DNA from: an uncultured Rubritalea sp.
GTDB taxonomy: Bacteria; Verrucomicrobiota; Verrucomicrobiia; Verrucomicrobiales; Akkermansiaceae
DNA: 44,392 nt
Direction: 5' to 3'
Assembly (NCBI GenBank): GCA_937981665.1
Contig: CALJOJ010000005.1
Location: 1-44,392, forward strand
In this document: positions 24,754 to 39,475 of the stretch, in pieces
How positions within the stretch are numbered: the first letter of the stretch is position 1
Layout of the letters: every line of letters begins with the position of its first letter
Translations under genes and position numbers: made by a program
Notes under the pieces: generated by a model
Told to the model about the DNA's origin: nothing
Databases searched by the model: none
The model's input: only the letters and a program-made list of their open reading frames with translations

Positions 24754-24771
24754 AAAAGGCTAACTCGCCTT
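24752..24771 (-). terminator. Possible short terminator overlapping the nirD stop
   Basis: AAGGC at 24756-24760 pairs with GCCTT at 24767-24771 around a 6-base loop. On the minus strand the hairpin is followed by six T (24757-24752). The stem is only 5 bp and includes the nirD stop codon, so this is a weak candidate for the end of the nirBD transcript. Confidence 0.4.
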
Positions 24772-25092
24772 AACAAGAAGCTCTCCCGCTTCTTCTCTGA
24801 CCTCAAAAACCTTGAGACTATACTGCTCGTCAGTGAAGCACTTGCCATCCTTCAGCGAATAGCGGTACTTATGCAGCGGGCAAATGATGATAGGAGTCCC
24901 CTTCTCGTCACCCACTATTCCTCTGGAAAGAACCATACGTTCATTCTGAGGATTATAGTTCTGCACCGCGTACCACCTCTGCTCATCTGCTAGGTGAAAT
25001 ACAGCCACCTGTACATCGCCCACTAGTACACAGCTACCTAAGTCCTGCGGGTACAGGTCTACTGAGCCAATATTTGTCCAATTAGTATCCAT
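24760..25092 (-). CDS. nirD: Nitrite reductase (NAD(P)H) small subunit NirD
   Basis: A 110-residue Rieske-fold protein of the NirD type, the partner of NirB in cytoplasmic reduction of nitrite to ammonium. It aligns by eye with enterobacterial NirD: WTNIGSVDLYPQDLGSCVLV at the start, ERMVLSRGIVGDEKG in the middle, and SLKDGKCFTDEQYSLKVFEV near the end. The first iron-ligand pair (CxH) is replaced by NYNPQ, while a CPLH is kept where other NirD proteins have lost it. As in its relatives, no complete Rieske cluster can form. It begins 12 bases after nirB and is surely co-transcribed with it. Confidence 0.9.
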   Translation of the reverse strand: MDTNWTNIGSVDLYPQDLGSCVLVGDVQVAVFHLADEQRWYAVQNYNPQNERMVLSRGIVGDEKGTPIIICPLHKYRYSLKDGKCFTDEQYSLKVFEVREEAGELLVKAS

Positions 25093-25104: not shown

Positions 25105-27615
25105 TTAGAGATTGATTGAGAAATTTCTCTCCTGTAAAGTGGCTGGTCGGATCTGGTCACGCTCCTGCACGAACTGGACGCTCTTATCTTTCTCATCACT
25201 ATTCGTGAAGTGACGGAATCTCTTGAGCTTCTCAGGGTCATTAATAGCATCTTTCCACTCACATTCATAAGTATCTACGAGGTGTTTCATCTGCTCATCA
25301 AGTTCATCACAGATACCAAGTGAGTCTTCGATCACTACTGCTTTGAGCTTATCCAGACCACCCTCTAGCTTAGTAAGCCAGACAGAAGTTCTCTCAAGAC
25401 GCTCGGCTGTCTTGATATAGTACATGAGAAATCTGTCAGTATACTTGATCAATGTCTCACGGTCTATATCCGAAGCAAATAGATCTGCATGGCGTGGAGT
25501 CATCCCACCATTTCCTCCCACGTAGAGATTCCAGCCTTTCTCAGTAGCAATGATACCAAAGTCCTTACTACGAGCCTCAGCACATTCACGTGCACAGCCA
25601 CTCACTCCAGACTTAAATTTATGCGGAGAACGGATACCACGATAGCGCTTCTCAAGATCAATAGCGAGGGTAGTACTATCCTGCACACCGAAGCGGCACC
25701 AAGCAGACCCCACACAGGACTTCACTGTTCTCAGAGACTTACCATAGGCATGACCTGACTCGAATCCAGCATCAATGAGTTCTTTCCAGATCACTGGAAG
25801 CTGGTCGACACGAGCACCGAACAGATCGATCCGCTGACCACCTGTGATCTTCGTATAGAGGCTATATTTCTTAGCCACCTCCCCGAGAACGATAAGTTTA
25901 TCTGGAGTGATCTCACCACCTGGAATGCGCGGCACAATAGAGTAAGTTCCGTCCTGCTGCATATTCGCAAGAAACGCATCATTGGTGTCTTGTAGCTTCT
26001 TCTGCTCAAGGATAGGCTTATTCCAAATGGAAGCAAATATAGAACCTGCTGTCGGCTTACAGATTTCACAGCCGACGCCTTTACCATGCTTCTCTAACAG
26101 TTCATCAAAAGTCTTAATCCCTGACACCTTCACCACATCATACATCTCAGAACGTGAGAGGTCAAAGTGTTCACAAAGTCGACTACTCACCACCACTCCG
26201 GACTCGGCCATCTTGGCTTTAAAGAGATCTGTCATCAGTGGCACACAGCCACCGCAGCCAGTACCAGCCTTAGTACATGCCTTCAGATCACCTACTGAGC
26301 TAGCTCCGTCATCGATAGCTGAGCAAAGCGTTCCTTTCGTAACCGCTTCACATGAACAAATCTGTGCAGAATCCGGCAGATCCATCACACTCGTTCCAAC
26401 CTGAGAATCATCTCCTGCTGGAGAAATAAGCTGAATCGGCTCAGGCGGTAGAGCCATTTTGTTTTGGTAAATCTGGAGCAAGCCACCGTAAGCGTCAGCA
26501 TCTCCTACGAGAATACCACCTAACAGAAGCTTACCATCAGCTGATATAACGAGTTTCTTATAAATCTTTTTGAAGTCATCATTGATCACTATTTCACGAT
26601 CTCCTTCCTTCGCTTCTATCTCCCCGAAGCTCGCTACATCTGTTCCAATGAGCTTCAGCTTAGTAGACATATCTGCACCTTCGAAGGTCTCTTCGACGCC
26701 ACATAGAAGACCAGCCGCCACATCAGCCATCTTGTAACCTGGAGCCACTAGACCATAAATCATACCTTCATAGAGGGCACATTCACCGATCGCGAAAATA
26801 TTAGGATCAGAGGTAAGCATGTATTTATCAACCTTGATACCACCGCGCTCACCAACCTCTAAACCACATTCTTTAGCCAGTTCATCACGTGGACGAATAC
26901 CTGCAGAGATGATGATCATATCTACATCTAGCTCAGAGTCATCTGCAAATACCATTTTACTCACAGCTCCATCACCAGCGATGTCTTTCGTATTCTTATT
27001 AAGATGGACTGAAATATCTCTACTCTCAATAACACTCTTAAGAAGTAAGCCACCAGCGGTATCTAGCTGACGAGGCATCAGACGTGGAGCAAATTCTACC
27101 ACATGAGTTTTCATACCAAGATCCTGCGCAGCTTTTGCAGCCTCGAGACCTAACAGACCACCACCGATCACAGCACAAGTCTTAGCCTGCTTAGCGTAAT
27201 CCTTCATTAAGTCTAAATCTTCAATGGTACGATAGACGAACACGCCAGCTTTATCCGCTCCAGGAACTGGCGGAACAAAGGGTGCTGAGCCAGTAGCCAT
27301 GACTAGCTTATCATATTCTAAAACCTTACCTTTGCAAGATGTAACCGTTTTATGCTCACGGTCTATCTCCACGACCTTCTCACCGATGTATAGCTCAATG
27401 TCATTCTCAGAATACCAGCTAAGCTTATTCATGTAGAGGTCTTCAGCAGACTTACCGCTGAAATACTCTGAGAGATGAACACGGTCATATGCAGGACGAG
27501 GCTCTTCACAAAAAGTGACTAACTGGTACTTAGATGCGGTATCTTTCTCGAGAAATTTCTCACAGAACTTATAACCCACCATTCCGTTTCCGACTACGAT
27601 GATTCTTGGCTTCAT
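25105..27615 (-). CDS. nirB: Nitrite reductase (NAD(P)H) large subunit NirB
   Basis: A cytoplasmic enzyme reducing nitrite to ammonium with NAD(P)H. Numbered from an upstream in-frame ATG (27639-27637), the features are: FAD-binding VVGNGMVG (15-22), NAD-binding VIGGGLLG (157-164), a BFD-type 2Fe-2S domain (C428, C430, C462, C465), a second Cys-rich segment around 540, and the siroheme/4Fe-4S domain with C642, C648, C682 and C686. GGQRIDLFG is also typical. I prefer the start at residue 9 of the long form (ATG 27615-27613), because family members open with MKPRIIVVGNG-like sequence and because a promoter-like element at 27628-27643 lies in the codons before it. The protein is then 836 residues. 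It forms an operon with nirD. Confidence 0.93.
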   Translation of the reverse strand: MKPRIIVVGNGMVGYKFCEKFLEKDTASKYQLVTFCEEPRPAYDRVHLSEYFSGKSAEDLYMNKLSWYSENDIELYIGEKVVEIDREHKTVTSCKGKVLEYDKLVMATGSAPFVPPVPGADKAGVFVYRTIEDLDLMKDYAKQAKTCAVIGGGLLGLEAAKAAQDLGMKTHVVEFAPRLMPRQLDTAGGLLLKSVIESRDISVHLNKNTKDIAGDGAVSKMVFADDSELDVDMIIISAGIRPRDELAKECGLEVGERGGIKVDKYMLTSDPNIFAIGECALYEGMIYGLVAPGYKMADVAAGLLCGVEETFEGADMSTKLKLIGTDVASFGEIEAKEGDREIVINDDFKKIYKKLVISADGKLLLGGILVGDADAYGGLLQIYQNKMALPPEPIQLISPAGDDSQVGTSVMDLPDSAQICSCEAVTKGTLCSAIDDGASSVGDLKACTKAGTGCGGCVPLMTDLFKAKMAESGVVVSSRLCEHFDLSRSEMYDVVKVSGIKTFDELLEKHGKGVGCEICKPTAGSIFASIWNKPILEQKKLQDTNDAFLANMQQDGTYSIVPRIPGGEITPDKLIVLGEVAKKYSLYTKITGGQRIDLFGARVDQLPVIWKELIDAGFESGHAYGKSLRTVKSCVGSAWCRFGVQDSTTLAIDLEKRYRGIRSPHKFKSGVSGCARECAEARSKDFGIIATEKGWNLYVGGNGGMTPRHADLFASDIDRETLIKYTDRFLMYYIKTAERLERTSVWLTKLEGGLDKLKAVVIEDSLGICDELDEQMKHLVDTYECEWKDAINDPEKLKRFRHFTNSDEKDKSVQFVQERDQIRPATLQERNFSINL

Positions 27616-27627
27616 GACTAAATGAAT

Positions 27628-27643
27628 AGCAACCATCACACCA
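27628..27643 (-). promoter_or_regulatory. Candidate sigma-54 promoter of nirBD
   Basis: On the minus strand the bases read TGGTGTGATGGTTGCT: the GG-N10-GC spacing of -24/-12 promoters with a perfect TTGCT -12 box and three mismatches in the -24 box. It shares TGG-N9-TGCT with four other sites in this island. The predicted start of transcription is about 27617, two bases before the preferred nirB start codon. Confidence 0.55.
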
Positions 27644-27708
27644 AGTACAATGAACTTAGCGCAACAATCAATGAATATATTTAATGCGTAGAATGAAATA
27701 CAATACTA

Positions 27709-29385
27709 CTAGTAGACATCCCTAGCATAACGCTTGCTAGACTTTAGCTCTGCAACGTAGGATACTGCCTCATCTACAGACTTATCGCCAAATTTCTCAA
27801 CCACTTTATGCAGTGCCGTGTCGACATCTTTTGCCATCCGTGAAGCATCACCACAGACATAAAAGTGTCCACCCTCTTCGAGCCATTGATAAAGAGCCTC
27901 ACCATCCTCTAGCATTTTATCCTGAACGTAAATTTTCTCTTCCTGGTCACGTGAGAACGCTAGACTGATCTTCTCAAGGTAGCCCTTCTCAGCCATCCCC
28001 TCTAACTGCTCACGGTAAAGGTAATCTAACTTCTCATGAGGATTCCCAAAGAACAGCCAGTTTTTACCAGGTGCTTTAGTAGCTTCACGCTCTTCTAAGA
28101 ATGCTCTAAATGGTGCTATTCCTGTACCTGGCCCAACCATGATCATAGGCACGCTAGGATCTACAGGCGGACGAAACGCTTTATTAGTATGGACAAACAC
28201 ACGCGGCTTAGTGACATCTGACCGCTCAGTGAAGTAAGTAGAACATACTCCCTTACGCTCGAATCCAGCTGACTCATACTTCACTACTCCCACTGTTAGA
28301 TGCACCACGTCTGGATGCGCTTTCGGACTAGATGCTATCGAGTAGAGCCGAGGGGCAAGCGGCTTCAGCATACCGAGAAATTCCTCAGCATCGGCAAATT
28401 TAATAGGATGCTCAATCACTAAGTCTATGATCTCACGTCCCCAGAGATAATCATTCAGCGCGCTCCTGTCCTCAGCGTTCGTCAGCTCTAACAACACCTC
28501 ACTACCCGACTTTTCAGCCCAAGCCTTCACTAGAGGTAATGTAATGTTTCGGATTTCATAATCCTCAGTAAGGACAGGCTTTAAACCATCATCATAGCCG
28601 AGTTCCGAGATCAGTCTCTCCACCAGTTCCGCATCATTGATCGGGTAAACTCCTAAAGCATCACCCGCTTCGTAACTGACACCAGAACCCTTGAGGTCTA
28701 TTTCCACATGAGTAGTCTCGCGTGCACTCTCAGCTGCATTGAGATTATCCAGCTTAGTGATCTCAACAGTACATGGGTTCTTCTTAGTCACCCCGCACTC
28801 ATCATCATCGTCATCGGATGCAGCCGAGACCGTTCCCAAAATAGCTAATAGATCAGTAGTCCACTTTGCATAGTCGTCATCGTAATCCACGTCCATATCG
28901 ACACGTGAAATAAGCTGAGTGGCACCGAGTTCCTTAAGCTTATCATCAAACTCGATCCCGCACTGGCAGAAATCTGGGTAAGATGAGTCACCTAGTGAGA
29001 GCACCGAGTACTTGAGCTTATCGAGCTTAGGCACATCTGCACTGTGAAGGTAGTCATGGAAAGCCTGCGCATTATCAGGTGGATCACCCTCTCCATAAGT
29101 AGAAGTAATGATAATAAGGTTTTTTAGCTCAGCCAACGCCGCGTGATCAAAGCTCGATAGATCTACAACAGTAGGATCCACTCCCGATTTAGAAGCAAGC
29201 TTACTAAATTTCTTAGCTAAAGTCTCAGACGTCCCTGTCTGAGAACCCCAAACGATCGTAACCGGAACTCCTGGTGCTGCATCTTCACCTTCATAAGGCG
29301 CAAGTAATGCTGTTAGGTATCCATTGAGCCATTCTTTCTGCTCTGGTGAAAATGGGGCATCATCTGGTAATAGAATCTGATTCAT
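27709..29385 (-). CDS. Diflavin reductase (sulfite reductase flavoprotein alpha-like)
   Basis: A 558-residue NADPH-dependent flavoprotein of the CysJ type. The flavodoxin domain (about 42-190) has the FMN phosphate loop SQTGTSET (48-55) and STYGEGDPPDNAQAFHDY. A short acidic linker DDDDDE follows at about 193. The FAD domain has YSIASSPKAHPDVVHLTVGV and GVCSTYFTER. The NADPH part has MIMVGPGTGIAPFRAFLEER and ends in the typical Tyr (RDVY). It moves electrons from NADPH through FAD and FMN to a haemoprotein. It starts 31 bases after the stop of the NirA-type reductase gene, and there is no CysI-like sulfite reductase in the window. Its partner is therefore probably that nitrite-type enzyme (inference). 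A sulfite reductase role with an unlinked partner cannot be excluded. Confidence 0.85.
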   Translation of the reverse strand: MNQILLPDDAPFSPEQKEWLNGYLTALLAPYEGEDAAPGVPVTIVWGSQTGTSETLAKKFSKLASKSGVDPTVVDLSSFDHAALAELKNLIIITSTYGEGDPPDNAQAFHDYLHSADVPKLDKLKYSVLSLGDSSYPDFCQCGIEFDDKLKELGATQLISRVDMDVDYDDDYAKWTTDLLAILGTVSAASDDDDDECGVTKKNPCTVEITKLDNLNAAESARETTHVEIDLKGSGVSYEAGDALGVYPINDAELVERLISELGYDDGLKPVLTEDYEIRNITLPLVKAWAEKSGSEVLLELTNAEDRSALNDYLWGREIIDLVIEHPIKFADAEEFLGMLKPLAPRLYSIASSPKAHPDVVHLTVGVVKYESAGFERKGVCSTYFTERSDVTKPRVFVHTNKAFRPPVDPSVPMIMVGPGTGIAPFRAFLEEREATKAPGKNWLFFGNPHEKLDYLYREQLEGMAEKGYLEKISLAFSRDQEEKIYVQDKMLEDGEALYQWLEEGGHFYVCGDASRMAKDVDTALHKVVEKFGDKSVDEAVSYVAELKSSKRYARDVY

Positions 29386-29416
29386 AAAATTATTAGGTCT
29401 AGTATTCGCTTAATCT

Positions 29417-31141
29417 TTAAGCTGCTGGGTTGGTAAATAGTTCTTTAAGCTCTTCGCTGCTATGCTTACGGGTGAAACTCGCAAAGTCTTCACCTTCATC
29501 ACGTTTCTGCATGTAAACTGTGAGCATATAAACGATGAGGTCTGGAACTTCAGTAAACGGGATAGACTCAAAAACATCTTGAGCGATAGCTCTGTTGTCA
29601 TCCACTCCCCCCCCCAGCACGATGTCGTAACCTTCCACAGTTTCCCCATTCACTTTACAAGGTGTCCCCTGAAGACCAATGTCACCAATATAGTGCTGAG
29701 CACAACTATTAGCACAGCCTGTCACGTGGATATTCAGAGGTGTGTCTAGCTCCACTTTCTCTTCGAGATACTTCGTAAGAACACTTGCATTTGCCTTAGT
29801 ATTCGCCGCAGCGAATTTACAACCAACACTACCAGTGCAAGCCACTAAGCCACTAGAAACATTCGTAGTCGTATGACTAAGTCCTGATTCCTTTACTCCC
29901 TCCAGCACAGCACTCACGTCCTCATCTTTCACATGTGGGATAATAAAATTATGCCAAGTTGTCAGGCGTATATCGGCCTTGCCAAACTTATCAGCAAGAG
30001 CAGACATCTGACGCATTTGCTCAGGAAGCACTCTACCAACGGGGGTCACCACTCCTATATAATTCAAACCTTCTTGAGACTGCTGATGGACACCGAAGTG
30101 CCCCTTCTTATCCTTGGCAGGTACTGGCTCACAGTCATCGAGTGGAACATAGCGTAATGAGAATGCCAACTTCTCCTGAACCTTTTCTAAATACTTAGCA
30201 TGCCCCCAATCATCGATAATATACTTCATTCTCGCGCGCTTACGGTTCGTTCTATCACCATGTTCGATGAAGACCCTTAAAATAGCGGCAGCCACAGCCA
30301 CACATTCATCAGGCTTCAATAGTAAGCCACAGTCACTCGCTAGTTGCTTATGCCCAGTGATACCACAGAGCTGCACACGGAAATAAACACCAGATTCAAG
30401 ATCCGCAGACCCTTTGTGCTCGATCGCGTAGAAGCCAATGTCATTAGTATCAGCACAAGTGGAAACTGCACCACCGCTATCAAAGCTAATATTAAACTTA
30501 CGCGGCATCCCATAAAGATCTCTGTTATTTAAGATATAATGATGCATCGACTTAGCGAGTGGCACGACATCGATAAGCTCCTGCTTATCAAAGCCAGAAG
30601 TCGGTGTACCAGTCACATTTCTAACATTATCTGCCCCAGCACCTTTAGATGTTAGACCCAGTTCAGTAAGCTTCTCTAACACCTTTACCACATTGCGTGG
30701 CCTGATCTCTCTGATCTGTAAATTCCCCCTATTGGTTAAATCAATGTAATTCCCACCCCAGTCTTCAGCTATCTCCGCAAGGCCACAGAACTGATGAGAA
30801 CTTAACACTCCAGCAGGAATACGGCATCTGAGCATGAACGAGTCTTGCGCAGGCTTCACATGAAACATCCCGTAGAATTTATAACGAAAGACATCACCTG
30901 CTTCTGGAAAGATATCTTCCCCCGCATTTTTCAAGATCGCATCCCAACAGTCTAAGCCATTACGCTCATACTTAATCGTCTCTTCTTTACAGAGTTCATC
31001 GACTGGTGTTCCGAATATTGATTCTTCGGGGTCATTTGTAAACTGCCCGGAGGCGTTTTGTCCCAAGAAAGGATACGCTTCTTTTATTCTACTAGCGAGA
31101 TACGCTTTTTGATCATCAGAGAAGGCACCAGTGTATTGCAT
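29417..31141 (-). CDS. nirA: NirA-type siroheme nitrite reductase (copy 1)
   Basis: A 574-residue siroheme/4Fe-4S reductase with the two-fold repeated nitrite/sulfite reductase architecture. The cluster ligands are C435, C441, C476 and C480 (CTGSVGC and CANSC). The N-terminal substrate-side motif reads [10 protein letters not shown] (137-146). The Gln-Ile-Arg form is typical of ferredoxin-nitrite reductases, whereas sulfite reductases have Q-[YL]-H there, so nitrite is the likelier substrate. It would reduce nitrite to ammonium in six electrons. The diflavin reductase encoded next may be its electron donor, which would be unusual because NirA normally uses ferredoxin. It is transcribed from its own upstream region, which has both a -24/-12 element and a 15-base dyad. 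Confidence 0.85.
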
Positions 31142-31153
31142 AATACTAGATTC

Positions 31154-31169
31154 AGCACCTCATGTGCCA
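31154..31169 (-). promoter_or_regulatory. Candidate sigma-54 promoter of nirA copy 1
   Basis: Minus strand reads TGGCACATGAGGTGCT: a perfect -24 TGGCAC and a -12 with one mismatch (GTGCT for TTGCT), in GG-N10-GC spacing. The predicted transcription start is about 31143, leaving only two bases before the ATG, which is a caveat. It shares TGG-N9-TGCT with the other sites of the island. Confidence 0.55.
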
Positions 31170-31208
31170 AAGCTGATCACTCACCCACGTTTTAAATGAA
31201 TTCAAATA

Positions 31209-31223
31209 ATGAGCAACATTCAT
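31209..31223 (-). promoter_or_regulatory. 15-base dyad operator upstream of nirA copy 1
   Basis: Read towards the gene, the bases are ATGAATGTTGCTCAT: an ATGA-N7-TCAT dyad that also fits the LysR T-N11-A rule. It lies 67 bases before the start codon. The same box (ATGAAT-N4-CTCAT, followed by TA) occurs 68 bases before nirA copy 2 in the same orientation. It is probably the binding site of a common regulator. Confidence 0.6.
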
Positions 31224-31257
31224 ACATGTCACAATGCGTTTTTAATCAGAACGACCT

Positions 31258-31307
31258 AAAAAAAAGATAATCGCCCACCGTAAAGACAAAGGAAACGGCA
31301 GGCGATT
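31258..31307 (-). terminator. Terminator after the porin gene
   Basis: AATCGCC (31269-31275) pairs with GGCGATT (31301-31307), with possible further inner pairing of CCGT and ACGG. On the minus strand the hairpin leads, after a few bases, into eight T (31265-31258). It starts 29 bases after the porin stop codon. The loop is long, so the folding is less certain than for the other terminators. Confidence 0.55.
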
Positions 31308-31335
31308 TAAATAAATAACTCAACCTCTATTCCAT

Positions 31336-32601
31336 CTAGAAGCTATAGTCTAATTGGACTGAAAACTGACCAATGTCAGTGCTAACTGCGCTATCATCAT
31401 CTCCGAAGAAGTAAGCAAACTTAGCTAATGCTTTAGCATTCGCATTAATAGGCTTCACAAGCACAAGGTCAGCTTCCCAACCATACGCTTCTGAAAACGA
31501 CTGGTCTCTGAAATGATGAACAGCAGCTTTCACAACAACACCAGCCACCTTAGTAGACGCCTTAAGATGAATATCACTTAGTCCATCAATTCTTGTATTA
31601 TTAAGTCCAAGCCTATCACCGATGAACTGATCAGCGTAACCATTAAAAGCGTGGACAGTTGCTAATGGCGTTCTAAAGTCATTACCTAGATACTCAACAC
31701 CAGCAGCATAAGTTACAGATCCCACTTTCTTTGAGAAATTAGTATGGGCATAAAATGCTGAATGATCAGCAGCAGAGCCAGCATCAGTCTGGTAAGCACC
31801 TTCTAGATAGAAAGAACCATAAGATTCTTTAAGATTGGCATAAGCTCCATAAGTATTATTACTTAGACCACCACCACGAGCTGCTTCGAAATCAATTAAG
31901 TAAGCGTAAGCCCCATATTTGTCATCACCTCGCGCAAGTGATCCATCCAAGATGTGTATATTACCGTCCCAAGCCTGAATTCCTCCAGTACCATCAGTAC
32001 CAAAAATTCGGTTTACTCTGTTAGCGTATGCATAGAAGAGAGAAAGATCATCTTTTTTGTATTCTACTGAAACAGCATCATATGTCTGCTCATTTTGTCT
32101 CCAAACTACGTTACCAACAAAAGCGGCATTATTTCTAATGATTCTCTGACGACCTATTTTAGCCGTAATCCCATTAGATGAGTACTTAACAAATGCTTGA
32201 TTAAGCTCGTGGTTTTCAGGATCAGCGATCGCTGTGTTACCTGCCACGAATGGACTAAAGTTTGCAGACTGCCCCGTTCCTACTTGATAGTCACGAACAG
32301 CAGCAAGAGTATGCTCAGACTGAACGAAAAAACTCAAAGGCTTATCACCGAAAAACTCCAAACCAGGCCTAAATCTAAACGTACCTGCATGAGAAGCATC
32401 AAAGCTCTGTTGATTTCTGAATTCATACCTAACGCGTGCATCAAGACTGAATTTAATAAAATCTAGCCCACTCGCCAACTCTGGCAATATTAGATTAGTA
32501 GGTTCAATAGGCTGAGTAAAATCTCCAGCTGTAGAAATTTCAGATAGAGCTCCTGTGGTCGCAAGTACACACAATGTTGATTTAGTTATTCTCTTATACA
32601 T
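31336..32601 (-). CDS. Outer-membrane porin, alginate-export-like beta-barrel
   Basis: A 421-residue protein with a signal peptide (MYKRITKSTLCVLATTGALS, cut near residue 24). It has alternating aromatic and polar strands throughout and a C-terminal Phe (QLDYSF), the hallmark of outer-membrane barrels. Segments such as FRFRPGLEFFGDKPLSFFVQ, VKYSSNGITAKIGRQRI and RQNEQTYDAVSVEY resemble the alginate-export/porin family. In this island it probably provides a pore for nitrate or nitrite rather than alginate (inference). It has its own promoter region and terminator, so it is a single-gene unit lying between the nirA copy 1 operon and lysR. Confidence 0.78.
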   Translation of the reverse strand: MYKRITKSTLCVLATTGALSEISTAGDFTQPIEPTNLILPELASGLDFIKFSLDARVRYEFRNQQSFDASHAGTFRFRPGLEFFGDKPLSFFVQSEHTLAAVRDYQVGTGQSANFSPFVAGNTAIADPENHELNQAFVKYSSNGITAKIGRQRIIRNNAAFVGNVVWRQNEQTYDAVSVEYKKDDLSLFYAYANRVNRIFGTDGTGGIQAWDGNIHILDGSLARGDDKYGAYAYLIDFEAARGGGLSNNTYGAYANLKESYGSFYLEGAYQTDAGSAADHSAFYAHTNFSKKVGSVTYAAGVEYLGNDFRTPLATVHAFNGYADQFIGDRLGLNNTRIDGLSDIHLKASTKVAGVVVKAAVHHFRDQSFSEAYGWEADLVLVKPINANAKALAKFAYFFGDDDSAVSTDIGQFSVQLDYSF

Positions 32602-32615
32602 AGTATAATAACTTA

Positions 32616-32631
32616 AGCAATGAGCATACCA
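32616..32631 (-). promoter_or_regulatory. Candidate sigma-54 promoter of the porin gene
   Basis: Minus strand reads TGGTATGCTCATTGCT: GG-N10-GC spacing, a perfect TTGCT -12 box, and two mismatches in the -24 box (TGGTAT for TGGCAC). The predicted start is about 32605, four bases before the ATG. It is one of five matching sites in the island. Confidence 0.55.
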
Positions 32632-32985
32632 ACAAACAAAAATCTACCTCATGTTAAATATTAAATAGACTCATAAAAAGATCTGCATCGAGTTTTCACT
32701 CAAAACAGATTTTCTAAAACTAATGAAGCTACTATCAAGGGAAATTCTGGAAACTAGCGATCTTGATGCAAAAAGAATAAAACAAGTAGAGCAAGGCACA
32801 TATTTGAAAGGGATAAGTACCCCTTTCAAATATGGAACGAAGCTATTCGTAGGTTTATGCTTTTGCCCAAAGCGACGTATTTTCAAGATACAAGCTTTGC
32901 TTGCAAACTTTCAAATCTAATAACAGAATCAGCAATATCGGGAGTTTTCAGAAGTTCCCTCTAGTTATAAATATTTTTTAATACC
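32632..32985. other. Intergenic region between lysR and porin, with a hairpin and small open frames
   Basis: About 350 bases with no gene I can support. Two overlapping open frames exist (65 codons plus strand at 32723-32920, 71 codons minus strand at 32886-32671). Neither has a recognisable domain or ribosome binding site. The region must hold the end of the lysR transcript. It contains the hairpin at 32800-32833 and a 17-base word shared with the transposase relic at 15 kb, so it may include insertion-sequence debris. Confidence 0.45.
32800..32833. repeat. Perfect inverted repeat (13-bp arms, 8-base loop)
   Basis: ATATTTGAAAGGG (32800-32812) and its exact complement (32821-32833) flank ATAAGTAC. 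No T-tract follows on either strand, so it is not a standard terminator. It could be an operator, an mRNA-end structure for lysR, or the remains of a mobile element. Confidence 0.75.
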
Positions 32986-33900
32986 TTAATCCAGCTTGAG
33001 TAACCCCTCAATACTCAACGCAAAGAACTTCAAGAAATTCTCCTCAATTAGAGATAAACTTTTTGATTTAGAAATATAATACCCCCACTCACGTAAAGGT
33101 GCTGGCGTTATTTCATGCTTAACAAGAGTTCCTCTCTCAAACTCATCGCGCGCTAGCCACTCAGTGACGATACCCACCCCTAGATCCAGTGCTACCATCT
33201 CCTTGATAGCTACCATACTACTCATCGTTAGTGTAGACCGCTGCTTGATCCCTATCCCAGGTAGATGCCTTTTTAGAATAGAATTAGTCACACTATCACC
33301 CCCATAAGTAATAAATTTTTCCTTGGCATAATCTTCAGCACAATCTGGTTTACTATCACACCATGCATGGTCAGGAGCAGTAATGAAACAAAGCTCATCT
33401 TCTGCAAGTTTTACAAATGGATGCATCGAAGTATGCAATTTAGAATAAAGACCAAAAGCCATATCCAACTCACCTTCATCTAACTTCTTGAGCTGATCTA
33501 CCGTATCACCCACTGTGATAAACACTTCACATTTCGCTTCTTTTTCGTAAAACGCCTTCAGAGCTTTCGGCAACACATGCTGACACAGCGTATCACTCAC
33601 TCCAATTTTGAGCGAGCTATACCCCCAGTCATTCAATGTATTTATTTTCGTAGCTGCGTTATCTAACTGCTGTATCGCCTTCTTAGCGTGATAAAGAAAG
33701 ACCTCACCGTGCGGTGTTAAAATACACTTTTTACCTAATCTCTCAATCAACTGACAACCGAGTATAGTCTCTAGTGTTTTCAAAGAGTGACTCACTGCTG
33801 ACTGAGTGAGATTGAGCACATTAGCAGTGGCTGTGAAGGAGCGAGTCTCTTCTAGAACTATAAAAGCTCTTAGCTGGCGAATTTCAGGAAGTTGGGTCAT
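32986..33900 (-). CDS. LysR-family transcriptional regulator
   Basis: A 304-residue LysR protein. The winged helix-turn-helix is at about 5-65 (LRAFIVLEETRSFTATANVL, then NLTQSAVSHSLKTLE). The effector-binding domain (about 90-300) includes LKIGVSDTLCQHVLPKALKAF. It is divergent from the nirA copy 2-dmsBC-nasA operon, the normal place for the activator of that operon. The 183-base intergenic region contains two candidate LysR-type boxes and a promoter-like element on each strand. It probably controls nitrate/nitrite assimilation in response to a nitrogen metabolite. CysB-like control of sulfur genes is a less likely alternative given the neighbours. Confidence 0.88.
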   Translation of the reverse strand: MTQLPEIRQLRAFIVLEETRSFTATANVLNLTQSAVSHSLKTLETILGCQLIERLGKKCILTPHGEVFLYHAKKAIQQLDNAATKINTLNDWGYSSLKIGVSDTLCQHVLPKALKAFYEKEAKCEVFITVGDTVDQLKKLDEGELDMAFGLYSKLHTSMHPFVKLAEDELCFITAPDHAWCDSKPDCAEDYAKEKFITYGGDSVTNSILKRHLPGIGIKQRSTLTMSSMVAIKEMVALDLGVGIVTEWLARDEFERGTLVKHEITPAPLREWGYYISKSKSLSLIEENFLKFFALSIEGLLKLD

Positions 33901-33944
33901 TATCTTAAGATATCTAACTAATATAATTTAATTATTACAATTAA

Positions 33945-33960
33945 CTACTTCTGAAAGTAG
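33945..33960. promoter_or_regulatory. Dyad overlapping the lysR promoter (possible autoregulatory operator)
   Basis: CTACTT (33945-33950) and AAGTAG (33955-33960) form a perfect 6-bp dyad around CTGA. It covers the predicted lysR transcription start (about 33948) and touches the -12 box. A regulator bound here would block lysR, which is typical of LysR autoregulation (inference). Confidence 0.4.
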
Positions 33961-33974
33961 CAACTACTATGCCA
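33959..33974 (-). promoter_or_regulatory. Candidate sigma-54 promoter of lysR
   Basis: Minus strand reads TGGCATAGTAGTTGCT: one mismatch in the -24 box, a perfect TTGCT -12 box and GG-N10-GC spacing. The predicted start is about 33948, giving a 48-base leader. This is the best overall match of the five. Confidence 0.6.
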
Positions 33975-34000
33975 AATAAAAAAACACACTTGTTTTAACC

Positions 34001-34015
34001 ATGAATAACACTCAT
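34001..34015. promoter_or_regulatory. 15-base dyad operator midway between the lysR and nirA2 promoters
   Basis: ATGAATAACACTCAT: ATGA-N7-TCAT with T-N11-A spacing. It is 26 bases from the lysR -24 box and 25 bases from the nirA copy 2 -24 box, so a bound regulator could serve both. It shares ATGAAT-N4-CTCATTA with the site upstream of nirA copy 1, at the same distance from the start codon (68 and 67 bases). Confidence 0.62.
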
Positions 34016-34040
34016 TAAAATTACCAACAATCTTCAAAAC

Positions 34041-34056
34041 TGGCATTCTAAATGCT
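34041..34056 (+). promoter_or_regulatory. Candidate sigma-54 promoter of the nirA2-dmsBC-nasA operon
   Basis: TGGCATTCTAAATGCT: one mismatch in the -24 box and one in the -12 box (ATGCT for TTGCT), with GG-N10-GC spacing. The predicted start is about 34067, giving a 17-base leader. The -12 half also forms one arm of an AATGCT-N11-AGCATT dyad (34051-34073). Confidence 0.55.
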
Positions 34057-34083: not shown

Positions 34084-35610
34084 ATGGAACCAACAGGCAA
34101 TAGTTCAACAATTACCAATATCGGTCAAGACGACCTAGATTGGAAAAAAATATCACCTTTCCTAAACAAAGGTGACGACCCAGAACTACTCTACTTCCTC
34201 TACAAAGGACTCATTTTCCCAAAGGAGGATACCCTTATGCTTCGCTGCAGAATGACCGGCGCTGAGCTAGACAGTAAACAGTTAATAGCTCTCGCGGAAA
34301 TAGCAGAAACCCACGGTGGTGGATATGCAGATATCACCACCCGTGCTAACTTCCAGATTAGAGAAATCCCATTTAAAGACGCCATCATCATCCTGAAGAA
34401 GCTCCTAGAGCTAGGTATCGCACCACCCATCACTGGATTAAACAACCTCAGAAACGTCACAGTCACCCCCACCACAGGATTTGACCCCGTAGAGCTTACC
34501 GACATCTCATCTATTGCTAAAGAAATCTACCAGCAAATGCTCTATAATGAAGAGCTTCAAGGTCTACCAGGTAAGTTCAACATCGCGCTCGATAGTGGTG
34601 GTAAAATTTCAGTTTCATCAGAGGCCAATGATCTAGGTATCAAAGCAGTTTCTTTAGACGGCAAAGTTTACTTCCGTCTAACAGCGGCAGACCTACATGG
34701 TGAAGACACCATCGCCAATGACCTTAACTGGCTCATCCTCCCAGAAAACATCGTCCACGTCGTCGCTACTATTATTAAGACTTACCTTCAGCTAGGTGAC
34801 TTCTCCAAGCGGCTCCGGTCTCGTATTAAATTCCTCATTAAGCAGATTGGTATAGAAACCTTTAAAGAGAAAGTTCTCGCTCAGCTTGAATGTGAAGTCA
34901 TTAATGACAGTAGTGTCACATTCACTAACCATGCCGAACCTGATGCCCATCTAGGTATTCAGCCACAGCGACAAGAAGACCTCTGCTACATTGGCGTCAA
35001 TGGCTCAGCCGGTAGATACACAAGCCAGCAGCTTAAACTTATTGCCTCTGTAGCGAACACCCACGGCAATGACACCATCCGTCTAACAACGCTACAGAAC
35101 TGCCTCATTCCATTTCTTAATCGATCCATCATTCCAGAAATTGTCGAAACGATTCAGGCAACAAAACTCACTGTAAACTCGAAGATAGCCGGCAGCATCA
35201 TTGCCTGCACAGGTAGTGCAGGTTGCTCATTTTCTGCCTCAGCGACTAAGGCTCACTCTCTTGCTCTGTCGCAGTATTTAGATGCTAATGGTGACTATAA
35301 TGAACCGATCAATATCCACTTTACTGGTTGTAGCTTCAGCTGCGCACAGCCATACATTGGTGACATCGGCCTCATTGGGACTAAGTCAAAAGGCGAAGAA
35401 TGCTACCACATCTTTCTCGGTGGCGGCGCTGAGTCTAACACCTCATCTGTACGAGTCTGGAAAGCAGTGCCTCACAACATCGTCCCACAGCACGTCAAAG
35501 CCATCTTAGACTTCTACGCTCAGCAAAAACAGTGCGGTGAAGACTTTAATCAATTCGTCCATCGTTACGGTGCTGAAAACTTTAACCAATCCATCGAGCC
35601 CTCAGGATAA
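34084..35610 (+). CDS. nirA: NirA-type siroheme nitrite reductase (copy 2)
   Basis: A 508-residue siroheme/4Fe-4S reductase, clearly related to copy 1 but shorter at the N-terminus by about 60 residues and divergent in sequence. Cluster ligands are C375, C381, C416 and C420 (CTGSAGC and CSFSC). The substrate-side motif TTRANFQIREI carries the Gln-Ile-Arg form found in nitrite reductases. It should reduce nitrite to ammonium. No flavoprotein or ferredoxin gene is adjacent; the gene is followed five bases later by the iron-sulfur/membrane anchor fusion and then nasA. This suggests that it works with that nitrate reductase module. Whether it draws electrons from the iron-sulfur subunit or from soluble ferredoxin is unknown. 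Confidence 0.85.
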   Translation: MEPTGNSSTITNIGQDDLDWKKISPFLNKGDDPELLYFLYKGLIFPKEDTLMLRCRMTGAELDSKQLIALAEIAETHGGGYADITTRANFQIREIPFKDAIIILKKLLELGIAPPITGLNNLRNVTVTPTTGFDPVELTDISSIAKEIYQQMLYNEELQGLPGKFNIALDSGGKISVSSEANDLGIKAVSLDGKVYFRLTAADLHGEDTIANDLNWLILPENIVHVVATIIKTYLQLGDFSKRLRSRIKFLIKQIGIETFKEKVLAQLECEVINDSSVTFTNHAEPDAHLGIQPQRQEDLCYIGVNGSAGRYTSQQLKLIASVANTHGNDTIRLTTLQNCLIPFLNRSIIPEIVETIQATKLTVNSKIAGSIIACTGSAGCSFSASATKAHSLALSQYLDANGDYNEPINIHFTGCSFSCAQPYIGDIGLIGTKSKGEECYHIFLGGGAESNTSSVRVWKAVPHNIVPQHVKAILDFYAQQKQCGEDFNQFVHRYGAENFNQSIEPSG

Positions 35611-35615
35611 TAACT

Positions 35616-37256
35616 ATGCTAACTCTAGAAGATCCCAAAAAAGCAACCGCTAGTGAAGCCACCTTGATTGACTCACTGCTTGCCGAACAGAAACAACTCA
35701 CCGCTGTTGAGCGCTTCAGCCAGCAGCACGAGAACAGCTCTCAGATTCTTCAAGAGAAAAGCTACAAAGACCTTATTCCTATCAGAAAACCCTCTACGGG
35801 CGAGCAGTACAGCTTCGCCGTAGATCTAGATAAATGTACAGGATGTAAGACCTGCGTTGTCGCCTGTCACAGTCTCAATGGACTCGATAAAAACGAATCA
35901 TGGCGTGACATCGGTGAGCTAGTCAGCCTAGATTCTCCAGATCAGCAGACTGTCACCAGCGCTTGCCACCACTGTGCTGATCCTGCTTGTCTCAATGGCT
36001 GTCCAGTCGGGGCTTATGAGAAGATGGAAGACACCGGTGTGGTCAAGCACCTCGATGACCAATGTATCGGCTGCTCATACTGTGAGCTAAAATGCCCTTA
36101 CGGTGTCCCCAAGTATAACAAGGATCTCGGCATTGTTAGAAAATGTGACATGTGCCACGAACGCCTCGCAGAAGGTGAAGCACCTGCTTGTGTGCAGTCT
36201 TGTCCTAGTGGAGCCATTTCTATCCAGCTCATCACCACAGACGAGATCCGAGCAAATGCAGCTAAGCAAGAATCCATTATCAAAGGAGCATTCCGCTCAG
36301 ACTATACCCTTCCATCTTCTACTTACACAAGCTCTCGTAAGCTCAGTGAGTCAATGGTTCCAGGAGATGAACATTCTATAAAGCCATCTCACGCGCACAC
36401 ACCACTCAGCATCATGCTGACGCTGACCCAGCTTTCTGTAGGCGTCTCAGCAGCTGACCTTATGACTCGTTGGTTAGCTTCAGAGTGGTCACTTTCTTTA
36501 CAAATACCACTTTGCGTTCTAGCCGTCATACTAGGTCTAACAGGTCTAGCATCTAGTATCCTTCACCTCGGTAGCCCTAAAGGAGCATGGAGAGTATTCC
36601 TCGGTCTCAAGAAATCTTGGCTCAGCAGAGAAATCATCCTCTTCGGTATGTGGATGCCGGTCTTGCTTGGTCACACCGCACTCACCATCGCAGGACAAAA
36701 CCCCAGCTCACTACCTGACTGGCTTCCAACTATCACTCCAGAGATCCTGAACCTCAGCGCTATTTCTACAGTAGTACTAGGCCTCATCTCCGTCTTCTGC
36801 TCCATCATGGTGTATGTAGATACCATGAGAGAATTCTGGTCACTCGGTAAGACGACTTCTAAGTTCATGGGAACCACAGCACTCGGAGGTGCTATCTCCT
36901 TGTTAGCATTATCGCTCCTCTTTTCAGACAGTTCTCCTTTCATCATTTGGTTCACAGCTATTCTCAGTGTGATCGGTAAGATATACGCTGACACTATTTC
37001 TCTCAAAGCCGCGAAAGACAGCGAGTGGTCATTTGCTAAAAGAAGCGCACTTATCCAGCTGCGTAGCCTTCGCCCCACAATGATTATTCGCTGGGTAATG
37101 ATGACTCTCACTATCATCAGTACCCTCATCGCCGTCTTCATTCCACTCTTCGCTATCATTGCTATCCTCAGTTTACTTGCTGGTGAGTTCTTCCAACGTC
37201 AGATTTTCTTCCAAGCAGTAGTCACTCTCAAAATGCCAGGCCACCTAGAACGATGA
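35616..37256 (+). CDS. DmsB-DmsC fusion: four-cluster ferredoxin subunit with quinol-oxidising membrane anchor
   Basis: A 546-residue fusion. After a 65-residue extension, the DmsB-like part has all sixteen Cys for four 4Fe-4S clusters: C74/C77/C80/C84, C117/C120/C125/C129, C150/C153/C156/C160 and C177/C180/C192/C196. From about residue 265 it is a DmsC-type anchor with about eight membrane helices. This part includes the family motif [20 protein letters not shown] followed by SREI, and the closing [18 protein letters not shown]. DmsC anchors take electrons from menaquinol or ubiquinol. There is no Tat signal, so the cluster domain faces the cytoplasm, as required to feed NasA. AGGA stands 10 bases before the ATG, one of the few ribosome-binding-like sites here. 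It overlaps nasA by four bases (ATGA), so the two are translationally coupled. Confidence 0.85.
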
Positions 37257-39475
37257 AATTGAAATCAAAATTACTCAAAAAAATCCCATCTATCGTAGAA
37301 CACAGCGGTCCTAAAACTCGCCAGCTTCTGCGTACTCCAGGTAAGTTCGGATTAGGTCAGGTTCCTAGATCTATCACACCAGACTACACCACAACAATGG
37401 TCTGTGGCTTCTGCTCCACGGGTTGCAGCCTAAACATTCACATGAAGGACGGTCAGCCGGTAAACCTTACCCCTGACTCTAATTATCCAGTTAACCTAGG
37501 CATGGCATGCCCTAAAGGCTGGGAAGCACTTGAGCCCCTAAAGGCTAAAGACCGCGCCACCACACCATTACTCAGAAATAAGCAGACTGGTGAACTCGAA
37601 GAAGTGAGCTGGCAGACCGCCATGCATACGTTCACAGACAAATTTAAAGCAGTCCAAGAAGAACATGGTAAAGAGTCGGTCGCCTTCATTAGCACAGGGC
37701 AGATAGTCACAGAGGAAATGGCCTTCCTCGGCTCGCTCACCAAGTTCGGAATGGGGATAAAACACGGCGACGGTAATACCCGCCAATGCATGGCTACTGC
37801 TGTAGTTTCATATAAGCAGAGTTTTGGCTTCGATGCTCCACCCTACTCTTATCAAGATTTTGAGCAGTCAGATGTCATCATTCTTATCGGCTCGAACCTC
37901 TGCATCGCCCACCCTATCATGTGGCAGCGCATCGAGCAAAATAAGCTCAACCCTAAGATCATCGTCATTGATCCTCGCACCACTGAAACCGCTATCGCAG
38001 GAACCCAGCACTACCCGATCATGCCGAAGTCTGACCTAACATTCTTCTACGGCATCGCACACATTCTCATCAAAAATGGCTGGATAGATAATGACTTCAT
38101 CAAATCTAACACAAATGAATATGATGACTTTGCTACTCACGTAGAGAAATTCACGCCCGAACTTGTAGAGAAGGAATCTGGCATTTCTATCGAGCAGTTA
38201 GAAAACCTCGCTCGTACTATTCACGAAGGTAAAAATGTTTCCTTCTGGTGGACCATGGGAGTGAATCAAGGTCATGAAGCCGTGCGAACCGCACAGTCTA
38301 TTATAAACCTAGCCTTGATGACTGGTAACATAGGCAGACCTGGCACAGGAGCGAACTCCATCACAGGTCAATGTAATGCGATGGGATCACGACTCTTCAG
38401 TAACACCACCAATCTATTAGGTGGTCATGCATTTGACGATCCAGCAGCAAGAACTAAAGTGGCAAACGTCTTAGAGATAGATGAAACTTGTATCCCAGAA
38501 GAAACAGGTCTAGCGTACGATCAAATCATCGATGGCATCCACAATGGGACAATCAAAGGCCTCTGGGTGATAGCTACCAATGGCTCTCACTCATGGATTC
38601 ACCAAGACAGATACAACAAAGCGATGAAGAAGCTAGACTTCCTCGTCGTCCAAGACATGTACTCTAGTATCGAGAATGCAGAGCTCGCAGACCTTGTACT
38701 CCCCGCCGCTGGCTGGGCAGAGAAAGATGGTGTATTTATCAACTCTGAACGCCGTATCGGTCTGGTGAAGAAACTAGCAACCGCCCCTGGCCAAGCTCTA
38801 TCAGACTTCAATATTTTCAAGCTAGTCGCTCAGTACTGGGGCTGTGGAGAAATGTTTAAAAAGTGGAGTTCACCTGAAGCTGCTTTTAAAATTCTTTCTG
38901 AACTAAGCTCTGGCCAGCCTTGCGACTTCTCGGGCATCCAGGATTACGACTTGTTAGAATCTAACAGAGGCATCCAGTGGCCGTGCACAAAAGACGATAT
39001 CGCTGGTCTAACAACGAATAACGAAAGACGGCTTTTCGCAGATGGTAAATTCTATCACCAAGACAGCAAAGCTAAATTCATCTTCAGCGACCCCGTCCCA
39101 GTAGCCGAACCTACCAGCAACAGCTTCCCACTCATCCTTCTTACAGGCAGAGGAACCTCCGCGCAATGGCACACTCAGTCCCGTACCGGAAAATCAGAGA
39201 TCCTCAAAAAACTCTACCCAGAGTCAGTCTACATAGAAATCAATCCAAGCGATGCTGCCAAGCTCAACATCGAACCAAATCAAATGGTAAAAATCAGCTC
39301 CAGCCGAGCATCAGTCCAAGCTACAGCTTACCTCTCGAACTCCGTCCAAGAAGGCCAGACATTCATGCCAATGCATTACGCAAAAGTGAATCGCCTCACC
39401 CAAGCATCCTTCGACCCATACTCAAGACAACCAAGCTACAAGTTCTGCGCAGTAAACATCTCAACCACACTCTAG
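37253..39475 (+). CDS. nasA: Assimilatory nitrate reductase catalytic subunit, NasA/NarB type
   Basis: A 740-residue molybdopterin oxidoreductase reducing nitrate to nitrite. The 4Fe-4S cluster is bound by C51, C54, C58 and C86 (CGFCSTGC ... CPKG). The molybdenum ligand is probably C179 in [20 protein letters not shown], the position used by NasA/NarB/NapA enzymes. Other family segments are [29 protein letters not shown] and [20 protein letters not shown]. The C-terminal domain ends without the extra BFD cluster found in many NasA proteins. The N-terminus has no twin-arginine signal, so it is cytoplasmic. The four-base overlap with the DmsBC fusion argues that the fusion is its electron donor. 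A formate dehydrogenase-like activity is unlikely given the nitrite reductase gene in the same operon. Confidence 0.87.

Follow-up and report, generated by a model that had tools for sequence, protein, structure and literature searches.

The window, a 44,392-nucleotide contig (C5) from an uncultured Rubritalea sp. of the Verrucomicrobiota, carries a nitrate/nitrite assimilation island in which each of the five transcription units is preceded by a sigma-54-like element, TGG-N9-TGCT, and by a second element, the dyad ATGA-N7-TCAT, which lies 25–39 bp 5′ of the −24 box and is exact at three of the five promoters. The dyad is probably bound by the LysR-type regulator encoded in the island, and the comparison of genomes makes it quite likely that a LysR protein resembling Nac, its own gene driven by sigma-54, works directly at sigma-54 promoters, with the nitrate promoters forming composite promoters within a general nitrogen regulon. 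The new part would be the phased LysR-type operator, together with an offshoot of the regulator reduced to its helix-turn-helix (HTH) domain. The regulatory picture of the first-pass annotation, which was made from the letters of the window, had included the sigma-54 element and that part stands, while it missed the phased dyad and its probable regulator, LysR, itself a target.

Sigma-54-type elements of the island

Promoters recognised by sigma-54 have the form GG-N10-GC, with the consensus TGGCAC-N5-TTGC. The window contains five elements of this form, all recovered where the first-pass annotation had placed them, each 5′ of and co-directional with its nitrate/nitrite gene, and we infer that they are −24/−12 promoters for sigma-54 RNA polymerase:

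27628–27643, minus strand: sigma-54-type (−24/−12) element of nirBD, TGGTGTGATGGTTGCT; ATG (27615) 12 bp downstream
31154–31169, minus strand: sigma-54-type element of nirA1-cysJ, TGGCACATGAGGTGCT; ATG 12 bp downstream
32616–32631, minus strand: sigma-54-type element of the porin gene, TGGTATGCTCATTGCT; ATG 14 bp downstream
33959–33974, minus strand: sigma-54-type element of lysR, TGGCATAGTAGTTGCT; ATG 58 bp downstream
34041–34056, plus strand: sigma-54-type element of nirA2-dmsBC-nasA, TGGCATTCTAAATGCT; ATG 27 bp downstream

The first-pass annotation had set the five copies against about 0.05 expected in roughly 850 intergenic bases. Counted over the full window, the bare pattern is by no means rare, with 13 matches against a mean of 8.07 in shuffled sequence (at least 13 in 6 of 100 shuffles); its intergenic copies, on the other hand, are strongly enriched in the island. 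All five intergenic matches of the window lie in the island, and the remaining eight fall within open reading frames (ORFs). When 444 kb of the same genome were scanned (the window plus 400 kb, of which 58.9 kb are intergenic according to the ORF caller used), 102 matches were found, 15 of them intergenic. The 10 intergenic matches outside the island give an expectation of 0.15 for the 854 bp of intergenic DNA in the island, counting both strands, and the Poisson probability of five or more is 5e-7, which excludes an equal motif density in random intergenic DNA. The spacing is specific too: N9 yields 9 intergenic matches with a same-strand start within 200 bp, compared with 1–4 for each other spacing from 4 to 14 in the 444 kb. 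The nirB site is left out of those nine, as the ORF caller began at an ATG inside the element (27636); the nirB start taken here, ATG 27615, is matched in the relative L072.

In the whole genome, TGGYRY-N6-TGCT has 81 matches against 43 for the reversed pattern and the stricter TGGCAY-N6-TGCT has 22 against 4. Classification covered 58 of the 81 sites (30 loci, 22 in further stretches and 6 from the 444-kb scan), with 23 not inspected, and many of those classified lie within ORFs, as by chance given the 43 reversed matches. A reading of the element as a palindromic NtrC-like site, prompted by GCAC-N5-GTGC in some nirA1 promoters, was rejected, failing by eye at nirB, porin, lysR and nirA2.

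A phased dyad upstream of the elements

The dyad emerged from a count of all 4-mer dyads with gaps of 3–13 in the 250 bp upstream of 12 sites in the same genome. ATGA-N7-TCAT ranked first, in 5 of 12 regions against 0.21 expected from 335 other upstream regions, with two of the five regions sharing one dyad; two further 4-mer dyads occurred in 3 of 12 regions each, and no clear distal site for a common activator was found among 4-mer dyads of these gaps in the 12 regions of 250 bp. The background is 13 exact copies in 400 kb. The copies in the window are as follows:

27671–27685, minus strand: dyad ATTAAATATATTCAT, one mismatch, 27 bp upstream of the nirB TGG
31209–31223, minus strand: dyad ATGAATGTTGCTCAT, exact; nirA1 TGG 39 bp downstream
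31196–31210, minus strand: second dyad-like sequence ATTATTTGAATTCAT, one mismatch; nirA1 TGG 26 bp downstream
32660–32674, minus strand: dyad ATGAGTCTATTTAAT, one mismatch; porin TGG 28 bp downstream
34001–34015, no strand assigned: dyad ATGAATAACACTCAT, exact, central between the divergent promoters, 26 bp to the lysR TGG and 25 bp to the nirA2 TGG

Elsewhere in the genome the dyad stands at an SsuA/urea-type gene (39 bp) and an nrtA-like gene (6 bp). A further composite with a gap of 16 (C84:8721-8767, minus strand; L119/L186) has downstream of it only a 108-aa ORF, 104 bp away.

A composite pattern consisting of the dyad, 0–61 bp and TGGCAY-N7-GCT was searched in 260 genomes, where 225 composites were listed against 1 for the reversed pattern. 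Some of the 225 are in coding sequence (e.g. the identical pair G107/G113) and some share one sigma-54 site; the dyad, moreover, was chosen on the 12 regions of the Rubritalea genome and seen at relatives' nirA1, and the family-wide test includes those genomes. The gaps peak at 3–8, 15–17, 25–29, 37–40 and 46–51 bp, with sparse stretches in between at 9–14 (6 hits), 18–24 (3), 30–36 (4) and 41–45 (1), and composites nearly cease past 51 bp, with 5 hits at 52–61. These clusters lie whole helical turns apart, which keeps the dyad to one face of the helix. Collapsing the data to 84 unique genus-by-gap values gives a mean vector length of R = 0.43 at a period of 10.5 bp and a maximum of 0.47 at 11, a value reached by none of 5000 uniform samples (periods 9–12); the collapse corrects for non-independent orthologous promoters in part, and the uniform null ignores the tree.

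The same promoter may differ by whole turns from genome to genome: nirA1 has gaps of 16, 27, 38–39 or 48–49 and dmsBC gaps of 15, 28, 37 or 49, the last in Cerasicoccus, which belongs to another class, Opitutia. In the cultured relative Roseibacillus ishigakijimensis (L087/L184) the gap is 27 at nirA1 and 50 at both the porin and the nrtA-like gene. Loci of Cerasicoccus, Puniceicoccaceae and Opitutales have the dyad at 49–50, some with one mismatch, and no composite was seen in L088, L089, L091 or L092. Genus g9 accounts for most of the peaks at 3 and 7; both of its inspected loci (L167, L170) are divergent amtB genes.

LysR as the candidate binder

LysR operators are typically 15-bp dyads of the form T-N11-A near the regulator's own gene. 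ATGA-N7-TCAT has the T-N11-A form, and it lies beside lysR. Among the 97 genomes of the family, 50 have a match to this lysR; it is present in 33 of 35 genomes bearing nirA1 and 17 of 62 others, and composites occur in 44 of 50 genomes with lysR and in 9 of 47 without. Upstream inspection of 30 lysR loci, drawn from the 50 genomes with the gene, found an exact dyad within 400 bp in 20. In 11 of the 30 it sits immediately ahead of the lysR ATG, downstream of that gene's promoter, and in all four such loci inspected (L173, L174, L177, L184) it is about 47–50 bp from a divergent nrtA-like promoter.

Genus g10 offers a natural variant. Eight of its 10 genomes were searched and are without a LysR match at E 1e-30, and all eight (loci L187–L194) encode a conserved 95-aa protein that matches LysR from residue 3 to residues 89–104 at 45–53% identity, with the same recognition helix, LNLTQSA[IV]SHSL. 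In the three scanned, HTH_1 is present and LysR_substrate absent. Substitutions in the gene are biased to the third codon position (568, 354 and 1484 at the three positions), and a sigma-54 site lies 31–37 bp before the ATG in 8 of 8. The same genomes also have more distant LysR proteins (22–30%), and a further g10 genome, G074, outside the short-form search, has a full-length LysR match at 36%.

Because the dyad has the T-N11-A form, lysR co-occurs with it, it lies near lysR and an HTH-only gene is kept in g10, the island's LysR is favoured over other candidates and is probably the binder.

RpoN, activators and the wider nitrogen regulon

The first-pass annotation had named the presence of rpoN and of an NtrC-type activator as checks on the sigma-54 reading. 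The rpoN gene was found (TIGR02395, 401.3 bits against a cut-off of 277.35), and the objection that the genome might lack it falls away. Its translation contains ARRTIAKYR, which we take to resemble the RpoN box, and the gene is itself preceded by a site, TGGCACAAATATTGCT, 38 bp before the start. Every sigma-54 promoter requires an AAA+ activator, and three proteins with a full-strength sigma-54 AAA+ domain (PF00158) are encoded, carrying GSFTGA, GAFTGA and GAFTGA; six more matches to PF00158 are weak (E 2.5e-8 to 7.8e-4). The three candidates score 393–420 bits against the NtrC equivalog TIGR01818, below its cut-off of 558.6. The window itself yielded no activator gene. Among the relatives' stretches, activator matches are confined to L074, L092 and, weakly, L089; all three are without a composite, a further point in favour of LysR as the binder.

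The nitrogen regulon first proposed had been limited to the island; the element common to all five units stands, while the regulon is wider. Intergenic co-directional sites outside the island precede genes for a GlnII-type glutamine synthetase (glnII), an ammonium transporter (amtB), P-II, rpoN, an SsuA/urea-type ATP-binding cassette binding protein, a thioesterase, the 108-aa ORF and a 256-aa protein whose start looks signal-like by eye. The site of the nrtA-like NMT1_2 gene overlaps a 5′ extension of its ORF and lies 33 bp before the next ATG. A second amtB copy (C21:54553) is without such a site in the 444-kb scan. The genes behind sigma-54-type sites are thus largely a nitrogen-regulon set.

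A search for the sigma-54 DNA-binding domain found rpoN in 91 of the 97 family genomes. Of the six without a match, four are less than 90% complete, while G010 and G045 are 98% and 96% complete. These genomes proved unusable as a negative control, as G010 and G045 still show an excess of TGGCAY-N6-TGCT over the reversed pattern (27 versus 5 and 36 versus 9, respectively).

Conservation of the sigma-54-like sites

The proposal that orthologous intergenic regions be aligned was taken up, and the element proved to be kept before nirA1, dmsBC and lysR in other genera. Before nirB, the relative L072 has a similar element in the same place, TGGCGCATGTATTGCT. Among nirA1 orthologues at 23 named loci, a site lies 8–15 bp before the expected start in eight (one with CGG) and 26 bp before it in one. 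Sigma-54-like sites or similar elements precede dmsBC in Cerasicoccus frondis, C. maritimus, L071 and L073. Of the 30 lysR loci, 29 have a co-directional site no more than 400 bp upstream; L138 is the one that does not, and it represents the same gene as L071, for which TGGTCTGAATATTGCT was seen. The base before GC varies among relatives (TGCT, AGCT, GGCT, CGCT) while GG and GC are kept, as expected for sigma-54. Together, rpoN, the GAFTGA-type activators, the like sites at nitrogen genes and this conservation support the sigma-54 interpretation first put forward.

In genus g3, 7 of the 10 genomes listed have divergent near-identical sites, TGGCACGCTTCTTGCT and TGGCACGGTTTTTGCT or similar, about 320 bp apart, which may represent a divergent pair of sigma-54-like promoters.

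Alternative explanations

Several observations weigh against a LysR-bound composite promoter under sigma-54. Within the island itself, the nirB and porin dyads carry one mismatch, and elsewhere in the genome the glnII, amtB, P-II, rpoN and omp sites are without a dyad within 300 bp, even at one mismatch; the dyad is therefore not required for sigma-54 use. Six of the 50 genomes with lysR have no strict composite, and the nine lysR-lacking genomes that have one comprise three that are 72–84% complete, five of genus g10 and G080. Cerasicoccus loci have composites with no LysR match in the stretches of about 21 kb searched, and nirA1 of Persicirhabdus has a sigma-54 site without a dyad. The HTH-only genes of g10 have no dyad at their own promoter, and a composite with a gap of 3 occurs in 4 of 10 g10 genomes, the two inspected leading into an amtB-like gene.

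Others concern the sigma-54 element. The search criteria leave 14 of the 23 nirA1 loci without a sigma-54-like site close to the start; in some of these nirA1 lies 3′ of dmsBC-nasA, with the element before dmsBC in L075 and L077. The nirA1 element of genus g7 lacks the −25 G, e.g. TCGCATGCCAGCTGCT, at nine of nine loci (L022, L023, L028, L029, L030, L032, L033, L036 and L037), with an exact or near dyad still about 48–49 bp away in most of them. An altered RpoN specificity in g7, where nirA1 has NNGCAY...TGCT, was considered and is not general, as the lysR and nrtA-like sites of g7 keep TGGCA; counts of TGGCAY-N6-TGCT in g7 are not above control and carry little weight, as this pattern misses the NGCT variants used there. 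Lastly, the near-complete G010 and G045 are without an rpoN match, and G045 has composites while G010 has the HTH-only gene and its site. They may reflect assembly gaps or a missing contig; loss of rpoN is the other possibility, and short of such a gap they are a problem for the model.

It is very improbable that the five sites match by chance or reflect sigma-70 features, with no shared regulon. The bare pattern is indeed not significantly enriched over the window, and ORFs contain many of its 81 matches in the genome, but the intergenic placement (P about 5e-7), the specificity for N9 and the presence of the same element before glnII, amtB and P-II and across genera all argue against it. A stronger competitor, although still unlikely, holds that the dyad is the enhancer of a sigma-54 activator, e.g. 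the NtrC-like protein of L003, with LysR merely a neighbour in the cluster. An AAA+ activator is needed at all sigma-54 promoters, enhancers could be helically phased as well, the dyad is not restricted to nitrate genes, since two genera have it at amtB and one genome at glnII, and the Cerasicoccus stretches carry composites without LysR. Against this, the amtB, glnII, P-II and rpoN sites of the Rubritalea genome have no dyad within 300 bp. Gaps of 3–16 bp abut the polymerase footprint, too close for a looping hexamer, and hits nearly cease past 51 bp, where enhancers usually start. Genus g3, with rpoN in 10 of 10 genomes and LysR in 0 of 10 (E 1e-30), has composites in 4 of 76 genomes, two of these being one identical sequence, and an HTH-only LysR is retained where the dyad is retained.

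A variant that overlaps the favoured reading carries more weight, as a minority possibility to be taken seriously: LysR would bind the dyad and solely repress or anti-activate, as Nac does at the nac promoter and as described for AtzR. A dyad 3′ of the sigma-54 site and directly before the lysR ATG, as in 11 of the 30 loci, is in a repressing position, the gaps of 3–7 at amtB are very near the polymerase, and PMC5263251 gives a precedent of a LysR protein repressing its own sigma-54-dependent gene. Steric repression, however, needs no phasing over five turns, although anti-activation that blocks a loop could, and the dyads of the clusters inspected sit at structural genes for nitrate use, which suggests a positive or inducer-gated role.

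Comparison with known systems

Proteobacterial NtrC/sigma-54 regulons likewise have −24/−12 promoters at glutamine synthetase, ammonium transporter, P-II and nitrate assimilation genes, and rpoN and NtrC-like response regulators are present here too. The systems differ in that the candidates here fall below the NtrC equivalog cut-off and that the nitrate promoters carry a proximal phased dyad. Nac of Klebsiella and E. coli, a LysR-family protein transcribed by sigma-54, couples sigma-54 to sigma-70 promoters and represses the nac promoter. The likeness lies in a sigma-54-controlled LysR protein tying nitrogen limitation to further genes; the difference is that Nac targets sigma-70 promoters, whereas the dyads here adjoin sigma-54 promoters of the target genes. 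An N-terminal piece of Nac of about 100 residues reportedly keeps the known activities (Muse and Bender, 1999), and the natural 95-aa form echoes it. In a search of NCBIfam, the window LysR matched other LysR subfamilies best, below their cut-offs, with no Nac model among the best 25 of 56 matches and no direct comparison with Nac.

Pseudomonas sp. ADP has AtzR (AtrZ in the spelling of PMC5263251), whose sigma-54-dependent lysR gene is divergent from its target; one recognition site serves both directions, and the own gene is repressed (PMC5263251). The single site between lysR and nirA2 is alike in both respects, divergence and sharing; AtzR activates one divergent operon, however, while many sigma-54 promoters here have phased dyads. 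The reference list of PMC5263251 includes work on nac promoter repression. Nitrate regulation in Paracoccus, by NtrC and NasT/NasS-type antitermination (PMC5424462), is a different solution from the composite promoters described here. No literature on Verrucomicrobiota RpoN or nitrogen regulons, or on nitrate assimilation, LysR and sigma-54 there, was found, judged by titles and the start of abstracts.

Genes of the island

The source genome comprises 2.71 Mb in 107 contigs and is 92.9% complete. The nearest named relatives of NirA1 are from uncultured Rubritalea, metagenome-assembled genomes of Akkermansiaceae and Persicirhabdus (74–78% identity). The gene order is nirD-nirB (−), cysJ-like and nirA1 (−), porin (−), lysR (−) and nirA2-dmsBC-nasA (+):

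24760–25092, minus strand: nirD, nitrite reductase small subunit (TIGR02378, 113.7 bits; cut-off 74.65)
25105–27615, minus strand: nirB, nitrite reductase large subunit (TIGR02374, 1101.9 bits; cut-off 578.35)
27709–29385, minus strand: CysJ-like flavoprotein reductase (TIGR01931, 592.9 bits, below the cut-off of 668.15; NF004859, 449.6 bits, cut-off 432)
29417–31141, minus strand: nirA1, NirA-family siroheme reductase (NF007126, 815.3 bits; cut-off 523)
31336–32601, minus strand: outer-membrane porin-like protein, Alginate_exp (PF13372, 35.4 bits; cut-off 25.2)
32986–33900, minus strand: lysR, LysR-type regulator, proposed dyad binder (PF00126, PF03466)
34084–35610, plus strand: nirA2, second NirA-like siroheme protein (NF007126, 435.8 bits, below the cut-off of 523)
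35616–37256, plus strand: DmsB-DmsC-like fusion, Fe-S and membrane anchor (PF13247, PF04976)
37253–39475, plus strand: nasA-like molybdopterin nitrate reductase (NasC/NasA models 434–447 bits, below cut-offs; Fdh-alpha 497.9, also below)

The window LysR has an N-terminal HTH_1 domain (PF00126, 69.5 bits) and a C-terminal LysR_substrate domain (PF03466, 124.3 bits). Three nitrite-reductase-like enzymes, NirBD, NirA1 and NirA2, are encoded in the island. NirA1 is paired with the CysJ-like flavoprotein (27709–31141), a possible NADPH donor for a NirA-type reductase. The nasA-like gene is joined to the DmsB-DmsC-like fusion (35616–39475), a pairing that recurs in Cerasicoccus and Rhodopirellula loci and in L092, and the two are possibly a membrane/quinol-linked assimilatory nitrate reductase.

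Transcription by sigma-54 starts about 12 nt after GC. With such a start, the nirB and nirA1 mRNAs would have leaders of 2 nt and the porin mRNA one of 4 nt. No Shine-Dalgarno signal was found among 350 genes sampled from G000 (20/350, against 30/350 for a control interval), whose starts do show TA-N3-T peaking modestly at −12 of the ATG (23 of 228 genes with at least 50 bp upstream; at most 17 elsewhere from −50). These two findings make leaderless starts plausible, and many genes may be leaderless. Akkermansia muciniphila is listed among Shine-Dalgarno-scarce organisms in PMC10783764.

Proposed mechanism and significance

From the sites and their conservation, rpoN and the activators, the dyad and its spacing periodicity, the co-occurrence of lysR and the HTH-only variant, all directly seen, we infer a sequence of events that extends to sigma-54 use, LysR binding, its contact partner and the sign of its effect. 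When nitrogen is limiting, one of the three NtrC-like proteins would become active as the sigma-54 activator and drive lysR together with the structural nitrate genes. Bound next to these promoters, always on the same face of the helix, LysR would then contact the transcription machinery, whether through the activator, sigma-54 or RNA polymerase, and tune the nitrate genes, as well as amtB in other genera; in several genera it would probably repress its own gene.

A fuller proposal, given tentatively and at slightly less than an even chance, is that Verrucomicrobiota have two-input sigma-54 promoters, in which an AAA+ activator is joined by a sigma-54-driven LysR bound 3–51 bp upstream, in register, and gating by contact, that one genus has reduced this regulator to a ligand-blind, 95-residue HTH-only form, and that the nirA1, nirB and porin mRNAs are practically leaderless. 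In the usual picture, a sigma-54 promoter is a switch thrown by one distant AAA+ activator. A LysR-type operator held in register across genes and genera would, if the proposal is true, represent a natural two-input design, and the HTH-only LysR would indicate which part of the protein evolution retained, while the sites together would provide a motif-level map of nitrogen control for Verrucomicrobiota.

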